Assembly: GCF_024204665.1 (NCBI RefSeq)
Contig: NZ_CP100355.1
Coordinates: 806,001-870,000 of the forward strand
DNA from: Natronosalvus rutilus
GTDB lineage: Archaea; Halobacteriota; Halobacteria; Halobacteriales; Natrialbaceae
Direction: 5' to 3'
Length of the DNA: 64,000 nt
Shown here: in pieces, positions 1 to 22,541 of the stretch
How the letters are laid out: every line of letters begins with the position of its first letter
Position numbering within the stretch: position 1 is the stretch's first letter
Program-made: the position numbers and the translations under genes
Notes under the pieces: model-generated
The model's database searches: none
Told to the model about the DNA's origin: nothing
What the model saw: the letters and a program-made list of their open reading frames with translations, nothing else

Positions 1-1450
1 CGAGCACGTTGTGGTACTTCCCGAACCCGAGTTTGTGGACGTGACCGGTGTGGAAGATGTCGGGCACCTCGTCGATGATCAGGTGGTCCTTCTCCTCCGG
101 GGCGAGGCGGGTGTGGCCCCCGAACTGGGGCGCGACGTGGCGCTTCTTGAGGAGGTGGTACATCGCCTTGTGTGGGTCGTCGTAGCTCGCTTTCTCCGCA
201 GGAAGCTCGGCGATGACCTCGTCCAGGCTGACGCCGTGGTACATCAGGACGGAGACGCCCTCGACGGTGACCATCGCGGGGTTGCTCACGATCTGTGCGT
301 CGTGGGCGGTCATGATCTCGCGCAGGTTCTCGTCGAAACCGGGCTGGGGCTCGGCCAGACGAACCGCATCGTGGTTGCCCGGGATCATCACGATCTCGAG
401 GTCGCCCGGGACCTGCTTGAGGTACTCGCTGAAGCGCTCGTACTGGTCGTAGATGTCGATGATGTCGAGTTCCTCGTCCTGGTTCGGGTAAATCCCGACG
501 CCCTCGACCATGTCGCCGGCGATGAGCAGGTACTCGACGTGCTGGGCGTCCTCGGTGTGGAGCCAGTCGGTAAAGCGGTTCCAGGCGTCGTGCATGAACT
601 CCTGGCTGCCGACGTGGACGTCGCTGATGAGCGCCGCCTGGACGTGGCGGTCGGCCGTCGAGGGCTGGTGCGTACGGGGTACGTCCGGGAAGTACATCGA
701 GTCGACGAAGGCGATACCTGCGTCGTCCGAGAGCGTTCCTTCCATCGCGAGTACCTCGTCACAGAGCAACTCGTCAACCAGGTCGGCGTAGTCGCGGTCT
801 TTCATCACCAGCCACGGGAAGGTCCCGGTGGCGTCCTCGAGTTCGATCAGCCAGTGCCCGCTGGCCGTCGAGCGAATGTCGTTGACCAGCCCGACCATCC
901 CGACCTCGCCGCCGCCGGGCATCGCCTGGATGGCGGTCGCCGGGCGGTGGTTGACCCGGCCCCGGAGTTTGCCGCCGAGGCGCTCGAGGCGGTCGCGAAA
1001 GACCGCCACGAAGTCCTCGTACTCGCCGGTGCCGGTACTCTGGCCTGTCATGTCGTTGGCGACGTCGATCGACTGGCGGCTCGGGTCGAGGGGCGTTCTC
1101 GGAGCGGGACTCCCCCCCGTTTCAACTGGAGTGCTCCCCTCGCCCTGTGGCGATGCGTCGGGGCTGGTTCCAGTCGAAACAGGGGGGTCCTGGCGAGCGG
1201 ACGTCGGCTCGGTCGCAGCGGGCTGGGTGTCCGTTTGCGCGTCGAGCACCGTCCTGACGTCCTCGGTCCGGAGGACGAGCGCATTCTCGGGGGCGGCGTC
1301 GATAGCGCGTTCGAGGACGCCGGCGGGGTCGTCTGCGGTGGCGATGAGCGTCACGGCTTCGCGGTCGGCGTTGTAGCCGCGGCTCGTGAGCTCGCTGACG
1401 ATCCGGGCCGGCCCCTCGAGTGGCACGTCCTGCGTATTCGCGAGTGACAA
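1..1450 (-). CDS. polD1: DNA polymerase D small subunit DP1 (3' end outside window)
   Basis: This is the small (exonuclease) subunit of the archaeal replicative polymerase PolD, which partners with DP2 at the fork. Reading from a TTG at 1450-1448, about 483 residues are present and the C-terminus is cut off by the window edge. A variable linker (about residues 45-120) precedes the OB-fold region. The phosphoesterase motifs follow in order: SDVHVGS near residue 275, AGDMVEGVG near 320, PGNHD near 357, MYHG near 400 and HTGHVH near 470. The start is TTG because no ATG gives the conserved N-terminus (APLEGPARIV-like); a T-rich stretch lies just upstream. It is divergent from the signal peptidase gene. 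Two origin-box-like motifs sit in the linker-coding part. Confidence 0.93.
   Translation of the reverse strand, partial: MSLANTQDVPLEGPARIVSELTSRGYNADREAVTLIATADDPAGVLERAIDAAPENALVLRTEDVRTVLDAQTDTQPAATEPTSARQDPPVSTGTSPDASPQGEGSTPVETGGSPAPRTPLDPSRQSIDVANDMTGQSTGTGEYEDFVAVFRDRLERLGGKLRGRVNHRPATAIQAMPGGGEVGMVGLVNDIRSTASGHWLIELEDATGTFPWLVMKDRDYADLVDELLCDEVLAMEGTLSDDAGIAFVDSMYFPDVPRTHQPSTADRHVQAALISDVHVGSQEFMHDAWNRFTDWLHTEDAQHVEYLLIAGDMVEGVGIYPNQDEELDIIDIYDQYERFSEYLKQVPGDLEIVMIPGNHDAVRLAEPQPGFDENLREIMTAHDAQIVSNPAMVTVEGVSVLMYHGVSLDEVIAELPAEKASYDDPHKAMYHLLKKRHVAPQFGGHTRLAPEEKDHLIIDEVPDIFHTGHVHKLGFGKYHNVL
1109..1132 (-). promoter_or_regulatory. ORB-like Orc1/Cdc6 box inside DP1 (inverted member)
   Basis: On the minus strand the core reads CTCCAGTTGAAACGGGGGGG, a half-dyad followed by a G-string as in archaeal origin recognition boxes. 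Its G-string points towards lower coordinates. It matches the box upstream of orc1 at 22519-22541 in the TCCA-N3-GAAA plus G-run pattern. It encodes the linker residues PVETGG of DP1. Confidence 0.6.
1166..1190 (+). promoter_or_regulatory. ORB-like Orc1/Cdc6 box inside DP1 (direct member)
   Basis: The plus strand contains TTCCAGTCGAAACAGGGGGG, very close to the archaeal ORB pattern (TTCCA dyad, GAAAC, G-string). It lies 33 bases from an inverted partner at 1109-1132, so the two G-strings point outwards. The DNA between them is GC-rich, so no unwinding element is evident here. Confidence 0.62.
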
Positions 1451-20946: not shown

Positions 20947-22506
20947 CTAGTTTTCGAAGCGCGCCTGGACGAACGGCTGGACGTCGTCGATGTCGGAGAG
21001 ACGCGAGTCCGAAATGAGGACTGCCTCGGTCTCCTCGAGCGGAACTGAGAGGCTGATCTCCTTCGTTCGGCCGTACCGCCCCTTCGAGACGACGACGGCG
21101 TTGACGATGCCCAGCATGTCGAGTTCGCTGATGAGGTCGGTCACCCGTCGCTGGGTCAAGATGTCGGCGTCGATCTCGTCGCACAGTCGCTTGTAGATGT
21201 TGAACACCTCGCCGGTGTTGATGCTGTGGACGCCGTTTTTCTCGAGCGAGATGATCGCGAAGAGGACGAGTTTGCTCTGGGTCGGGAGGGTGCGGACGAC
21301 CTCGACGACGCGGTCGAGTTCGATCTTGTCTTGGGCCTGGCGGACGTGTTCCTCGACGATGGTTTCGGCCTGGGAGCGCTCGGCGAGTTCGCCCGCGGTC
21401 CGGAGCAAGTCGAGCGCGCGTCGGGCGTCGCCGTGTTCCTGGGCGGCGAAGGCCGCACACAGCGGGATGACGTCCGTCGACAGGGCGTCTCCCTTGAACG
21501 CGACCTCCGAACGGTGCTGGAGGATGTCCCGGAGCTGGTTGGCGTCGTAGGGCGGGAAGACGATTTCCTCTTCCCCGAGACTGGACTTGACGCGGGGGTC
21601 GAGGAAGTCCGTGAACTTCAGGTCGTTCGAGATGCCGATGATCGACACCCGCGAGTTGACGAGTTCGGAGTTCATCCGAGAGAGGTTGTAGAGCGTGTCG
21701 TCGCCCGACTTCTCGACCAGCTTGTCGATCTCGTCTAGCATGATGACGACGACGCGTTCGGAGTAGTCGACGGCGTCGAAGAAGACGCTGTAGACCCGGT
21801 CGGTCGGCCACCCGGTCATCGGAACCTCCTCGAACTCCTCTCGGTCGGCTTCCAGCGAGGCGATCTCCTCGTTTACGTCCGCGATGGAGTCGAACGACTC
21901 GTCCTCGAGGACTGGCGACGCTTCGGCTTCCGTCTCGCTCGAGTTCTCGTTCGTCCAGTCGACGTCGTCTTCGTCCGTCCCGTCGTTCGTCTCCTCGAGG
22001 GCCTCTCGAATCGACTCGAGTTCCTCGATTCGCTCGTCGATTCGCGCCTCGTTCTCCTCGATGAACTTGTTGGCGAGCTGGGCGAGCACGCGGTACTGCG
22101 TGTCGGTGACCTCGCAGTTGATGTACTCGACGTCACAGGGGACGCTGTACTTCTGGGAGGTGCTCTCGAGTTCCTTGCTGACGAACTTCGCGCTCGCGGT
22201 CTTGCCGGTCCCGGTCTTGCCGTAGATCAGGATGTTCGATGGCGTCTCCCCTCGAAGGGCCGCGACGAGAATCGTCGCCATCTTGTTGATCTGGTCGCTT
22301 CGATGGGGCAGTTCGTGTGGTGTGTACGACGGTCGCAGCACTTCCTTGTTCTCGAAAATCGGTTCGCCACTGAGCAAATCGTCGAACAGCCCCTGATTCG
22401 ACTCCTCGCCCTCGGTGGCACTCTCGAGGTCTGCCATGAAGCCAGCCGGCAACTCTCGATCGCCCGAACGGCCCGAATCCGTGGTATCTGATTTTTCGTC
22501 TGACAT
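20947..22506 (-). CDS. orc1: Orc1/Cdc6-type replication initiator
   Basis: AAA+ initiator that binds origin recognition boxes and recruits MCM. 519 residues: acidic N-terminal 45, then the lead-in FENKEVLRPSYTPHELPHR, Walker A YGKTGTGKTAS (about 95-105), an acidic insertion typical of haloarchaea (about 160-235), Walker B VVIMLDEIDK (about 264-273), sensor-1 ISNDLKFTDFLDPRVKSS, and a C-terminal winged helix (about 420-500) that contacts DNA. The sequence resembles the paralogue tied to the main chromosomal oriC1 in other halophiles. An ORB-like box overlaps its promoter 13 bases upstream, so autoregulation is likely. Confidence 0.95.
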   Translation of the reverse strand: MSDEKSDTTDSGRSGDRELPAGFMADLESATEGEESNQGLFDDLLSGEPIFENKEVLRPSYTPHELPHRSDQINKMATILVAALRGETPSNILIYGKTGTGKTASAKFVSKELESTSQKYSVPCDVEYINCEVTDTQYRVLAQLANKFIEENEARIDERIEELESIREALEETNDGTDEDDVDWTNENSSETEAEASPVLEDESFDSIADVNEEIASLEADREEFEEVPMTGWPTDRVYSVFFDAVDYSERVVVIMLDEIDKLVEKSGDDTLYNLSRMNSELVNSRVSIIGISNDLKFTDFLDPRVKSSLGEEEIVFPPYDANQLRDILQHRSEVAFKGDALSTDVIPLCAAFAAQEHGDARRALDLLRTAGELAERSQAETIVEEHVRQAQDKIELDRVVEVVRTLPTQSKLVLFAIISLEKNGVHSINTGEVFNIYKRLCDEIDADILTQRRVTDLISELDMLGIVNAVVVSKGRYGRTKEISLSVPLEETEAVLISDSRLSDIDDVQPFVQARFEN

Positions 22507-22518
22507 TCGTCGTACGCG

Positions 22519-22541
22519 TACCCCCTCATTTCGTGTGGAGC
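22519..22541 (-). promoter_or_regulatory. ORB-like box at the orc1 promoter
   Basis: Minus strand CTCCACACGAAATGAGGGGG: dyad half TCCA, then CGAAA, then a G-string. It ends 13 bases before the orc1 ATG, where a leaderless promoter would be. Confidence 0.68.

Follow-up and report, generated by a model that had tools for sequence, protein, structure and literature searches.

What are two origin recognition boxes (ORBs) doing inside the coding sequence of a DNA polymerase subunit? The winged helix of archaeal Orc1 recognises an ORB, and the protein's AAA+ domain touches the G-string (review, PMC7776575), and the G-string is essential for oriC1 of Haloarcula hispanica (PMC3936714). An inverted pair of such boxes lies within polD1, the gene for DP1, the small subunit of polymerase PolD, in the window, the whole stretch of 64,000 nucleotides of Natronosalvus rutilus DNA analysed here. 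An earlier reading made from this sequence only, without database searches, had proposed three roles for the pair: a switch on polD1 transcription that responds to Orc1, the remnant of an origin, or a titration site. Here we argue from sequence comparison that the pair is most likely a gene control point rather than a replication origin. The features concerned, in window coordinates, are as follows.

1112-1131, minus strand: ORB box 1, CTCCAGTTGAAACGGGGGGG, on the sense strand of polD1, encoding PVETGG
1168-1187, plus strand: ORB box 2, TTCCAGTCGAAACAGGGGGG, on the antisense strand of polD1, encoding PPVSTG
1132-1167, no strand: spacer between the boxes, 36 bp, GC-rich, of near-invariant length across relatives
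2-1426, minus strand: polD1 (DP1), probable GTG start at 1426; the gene runs past the window start
989-1231, minus strand: the part of polD1 that hosts the pair, coding for a predicted disordered linker (residues 73-153 of the translation)
20947-22506, minus strand: orc1, oriC1-type Orc1/Cdc6 initiator and presumed binder (Cdc6_C, 2.1e-31)
22521-22540, minus strand: ORB upstream of orc1, CTCCACACGAAATGAGGGGG, relaxed type, 14 bp before the orc1 ATG

The polD1 reading frame is identified as DP1 by its Pfam match (DNA_pol_E_B, 1.9e-16), and the orc1 product has its best PDB matches in 2qby_A (Sulfolobus Cdc6-1) and 2v1u (another archaeal Cdc6 homologue). Both polD1 boxes match the haloarchaeal ORB exactly, with the core TTCCA-NNN-GAAAC and the extended G-string; their G-strings point outward, and oriC1 boxes here or in related genomes have this motif too. 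Residues 73-153 have a pLDDT of about 24-33 in an AlphaFold2 model of low overall confidence (mean 55, built from 12 sequences). The sequence-only reading had placed two boxes of ORB pattern with outward G-strings in the DP1 linker, about 21 kb from orc1, and had held that their bases double as codons; coordinates, motif and disorder prediction agree with this placement, orc1 lies where that distance puts it, and both boxes encode linker residues. Orc1 is very probably the protein that binds the pair.

Boxes of this quality are rare in the genome. The strict ORB pattern, YTCCAGTNGAAACNNNGGGG, has exactly two matches in 4.3 Mb, both of them the polD1 boxes, and the reversed pattern, used as a control, has none in 61 genomes. 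A relaxed pattern, YTCCANNNGAAAYNNNGGGG, finds 11 sites (control pattern, 0): two at oriC1, one downstream of tRNA-Gln, three in the htpX-nmd3 intergenic region, two in polD1, one at the 5′ end of orc1 and two singletons.

The pair is a property of the class rather than of this genome. Of 61 relatives, 58 gave a DP1 match. From the window's family and one other, 30 DP1 loci were compared, and every one has the inverted pair, either strict or degenerate. A search across the class, requiring the exact spacing and at most three mismatches summed over both boxes, recovered it in 190 of 391 Halobacteria genomes, representing 53 of 86 genera, and nearly all of these genomes have a single copy; within the window's own family it is present in 80 of 101 genomes. 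The reversed-pattern control gave no pair in the same 391 genomes, and no pair was found in 124 genomes of the same phylum outside Halobacteria. Some lineages have lost or halved it (the pair has decayed in G017, and one box is left in genomes G040 and G056 of genus g33), so the element is not indispensable there. At locus L261 of G017, two inverted boxes resembling those of oriC1 also lie roughly 1 kb downstream of polD1.

Spacing is almost fixed in a set of 80 loci from named species (Natrialba, Natrinema, Natronorubrum, Natronococcus, Haloarcula, Halomicrobium, Haloferax and others). The gap is 36 bp in 67 of the 69 loci resolved automatically and 33 bp in the other two; several of the remaining loci have the same gap with more mismatches, Haloferax keeps it around a degenerate pair, and a gap equivalent to 33 bp also occurs at L028 and L108. 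Exact pairs with other gaps, searched from 37 to 67 bp, occur in only 4 of the 391 genomes, and the search pattern therefore does not explain the 36-bp gap. The linker segments flanking the pair range from 50 to 115 aa on the N-terminal side and from 20 to 47 aa on the C-terminal side, and the oriC1 box gap of the same species varies between 161 and 328 bp. A near-fixed gap amid such variation implies a specific nucleoprotein geometry.

Could the protein, rather than the DNA, be what is conserved? A DP1 linker peptide, PSVSTG...PVETxG, that merely resembles ORBs would account for residues that are well conserved inside an otherwise variable linker, and we consider this explanation scarcely credible. 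Across 57 genes from related genomes, whose counts are therefore of non-independent events, the codons within the boxes are near-invariant and uncommon in the rest of the same genes: Pro in the sense box is CCA in 52/52 (background 0.10), Glu is GAA in 57/57 (0.27), Val in the antisense box is GTT in 48/48 (0.08), Thr is ACT in 53/53 (0.08) and Gly is GGA in 53/54 (0.10). Third-position bases are retained even where the residue changes (GCA and CGA in place of CCA). Synonymous recoding of 18 genes, 20,000 times each, never regenerated the pair, and the recoded genes averaged about 8 mismatches to it as against the 0 observed. The same 20-mer also stands in non-coding DNA, at oriC1 and in the flanks of tRNA-Gln. 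On codon use and recoding we reject the peptide-motif reading at the sequence level; the peptide may have a function as well. Dual coding has left its own footprint: GAA fills the free NNN triplet in 93 of 129 ORBs of the oriC1/5′ region but in 0 of 45 polD1 antisense boxes, where it would read as a Phe codon. Since the pair is spread over 53 genera, inheritance without selection is implausible, and selection almost certainly maintains the pair at the DNA level. The comparison with relatives that the sequence-only reading had suggested thus answers in favour of the DNA motif, which in codons, recoding and gap is kept far beyond what the linker protein needs.

If the DNA is selected, the next question is whether it is selected as an origin. 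The genome has a recognisable oriC1 of its own at 633.4-633.9 kb of contig C1 (core G000:C1:633402-633833), in which inverted boxes of the CCACC variant, CTCCACCCGAAACGAAGGGG and CTCCACCTGAAACGAAGGGG, flank an AT-rich region of about 290 bp. From this oriC1 the polD1 pair is 173 kb away and orc1 about 194 kb, and no orc gene was seen in the stretch around it. Most other families have oriC1, orc1 and polD1 together within a few kb, and oriC1 with its gene neighbourhood has been described as conserved in haloarchaea (PMC3528665); against that description, the oriC1 core is split from orc1 in the window's genus. Among its members polD1 and oriC1 are about 150 kb to 1.5 Mb apart, and polD1 and orc1 4-194 kb; the pair is still perfect in most of them, with one box degenerate in G001 and G004. 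This break-up of the locus is a natural experiment, and the persistence of the pair shows that the element follows the gene. GC skew around polD1, orc1 and oriC1 gave no informative signal in this genome or in its sibling G002.

An auxiliary, dormant or relic origin, or an MCM loading site that lacks an unwinding element of its own, would explain why the boxes are of oriC1 type and share the outward polarity of oriC1 boxes, yet it is improbable. Inverted ORBs with outward G-strings are present, but no AT-rich unwinding element (DUE) lies between them: the gap is 36 bp and GC-rich, as against 161-328 bp of AT-rich sequence at oriC1. The pair is moreover intragenic and remote from orc1, whereas an oriC1-type origin is intergenic and beside orc/cdc6, and a relic would not show perfect conservation. 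We reject an active origin on this architecture and on the presence of a recognisable oriC1 elsewhere in the genome. The remnant proposed by the sequence-only reading is likewise disfavoured, by the missing DUE, the fixed gap, purifying selection across the class and retention far from oriC1.

The main rival to control of the gene is titration, in which the polD1 pair, together with the boxes at orc1 and tRNA-Gln, would act as an initiator sink that draws Orc1 off oriC1 soon after initiation; by analogy with known systems this is conceivable but unlikely. In bacteria, datA titrates DnaA. A haloarchaeal precedent exists in Haloarcula hispanica, where oriC2D, rich in ORBs, is a negative regulator of oriC2, probably through titration of Cdc6E (PMC3936714), and the ancestral position of the pair, only a few kb from oriC1, means that it would be copied early. 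However, a sink would be expected to be a cluster of many boxes, and polD1 has two where oriC2D has 11; titration alone needs no near-invariant inverted geometry; and in the window's genus the pair is still perfect in most members at 150 kb to 1.5 Mb from oriC1. A role in chromosome organisation, with Orc1-bound boxes around oriC1 serving segregation or the folding of an origin domain, would resemble the layout of bacterial parS sites, which lie near oriC. The several conserved box sites that surround the ancestral oriC1 (orc1, polD1, tRNA-Gln, htpX-nmd3) fit this idea, which nevertheless has a low probability in our estimate: however far the polD1 pair lies from oriC1, up to 1.5 Mb, its geometry is unchanged, and we know of no partition protein that uses ORBs. 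Among the three options of the sequence-only reading, the regulatory switch is thus best supported and titration comes second.

The other boxes deserve description in their own right. In most of about 70 species the start codon of orc1 is preceded, at 13-14 bp, by an ORB; this genome and its siblings G002, G006 and G007 are among those that have it, and its position is conserved across Halobacteria. Both replication genes that are ancestral neighbours of oriC1, orc1 and polD1, thus have initiator boxes, and these travel with the genes. In many species a further ORB lies inside the orc1 reading frame, in a variable insert (loci L181-L260), and in some a weak box lies about 27 bp from it in inverted orientation. 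A single ORB follows shortly downstream of tRNA-Gln(CTG) in most loci checked (L121-L131, L136, L137, L139, L140), which represent several genera and three or more families. The copy in this genome lies outside the window, 46 bp downstream of the tRNA gene and 14 kb from oriC1 (G000:C1:647754-647892); it is possibly another initiator site. The htpX-nmd3 intergenic region has three ORBs on the same strand (G000:C1:684505-684869), and siblings G006 and G007 have two or three similar clustered boxes.

We return to control of polD1 by Orc1. That the pair is an intragenic operator coupling PolD supply to Orc1 is, in our judgement, close to an even chance. Some 240-315 nt past the polD1 start, two Orc1 monomers would sit on the inverted boxes at their fixed spacing and would hinder or modulate RNA polymerase moving through the gene. 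DP1 would fall whenever Orc1 is plentiful or in the state that binds DNA, and the supply of the PolD small subunit would thereby track the amount or nucleotide state of Orc1. The box at -14 would limit orc1 itself, a matching autoregulatory loop. We infer Orc1 occupancy of the polD1 pair, cooperative binding, and an effect on transcription with its direction. The polD1 start and the pair are separated by a distance that varies by as much as 65 codons, which fits a roadblock and does not fit a mechanism of promoter contact. Like an Orc-regulated gene, polD1 has a conserved site at the gene, in fixed geometry, independent of proximity to the origin. The site is at +239 to +314 nt from the probable GTG start codon and thus not in the promoter, where such a gene might carry it; the orc1 box at -14 does lie at the 5′ end. 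Against an operator, the loci with boxes include the tRNA-Gln 3′ flank and htpX-nmd3 and so do not form a clean regulon of replication genes; that some lineages lack the pair or have a single box also counts against it. The fuller proposal, in which Orc1 would control polD1 through a dual-coding operator of fixed geometry and orc1 through its box at -14, in a feedback circuit conserved across Halobacteria and independent of origin position, is more tentative still, though plausible.

Known systems resemble the polD1 pair in part. With the ORBs of haloarchaeal oriC1 (PMC3936714, PMC3528665) it shares the 20-bp motif, the inversion and the outward G-strings; unlike them it lies in coding sequence with a fixed 36-bp gap and no AT-rich unwinding element, and it need not adjoin oriC1 or orc1. 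Like oriC2D of Haloarcula hispanica (PMC3936714) and bacterial datA, it consists of initiator boxes outside an origin and beside an initiator-gene locus, the latter in the ancestral gene order; oriC2D is an intergenic array of 11 boxes, whereas the pair is intragenic, of fixed geometry and oriC1-type motif, and conserved across families. A precedent for an operator is Orc1-2 of Saccharolobus, an Orc1 paralogue that regulates transcription (PMC9738581). In S. islandicus, as proposed here, a protein of the Orc1/Cdc6 family acts on genes and not origins, but Orc1-2 is a non-initiator paralogue acting on DNA-damage genes, whereas the presumed binder at polD1 is the initiator, its targets are replication genes and its sites lie inside a reading frame. 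With DnaA boxes, which in bacteria control dnaA and further genes (PMC8203912), the pair would share an initiator that also regulates genes, its own among them; motif and taxa are unrelated, and the polD1 boxes differ in their dual coding. By this analogy the polD1 pair may work as a control site bound by the initiator outside the origin. Our search, mostly outside the subscription literature, found no published report of ORBs inside polD1, and an earlier mention is possible. A survey of haloarchaeal origins covered only intergenic regions beside orc/cdc6 genes (PMC3528665), to which the polD1 site would be invisible.

The polD1 pair bears on how archaea couple the supply of replication proteins to initiation. 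A pair of initiator sites that is found across the class, dual-coded in a polymerase gene and separable from the origin is an element that can be mutated silently. Thus, it allows one to ask whether the Orc1 initiator of Halobacteria may also regulate genes or is titrated.
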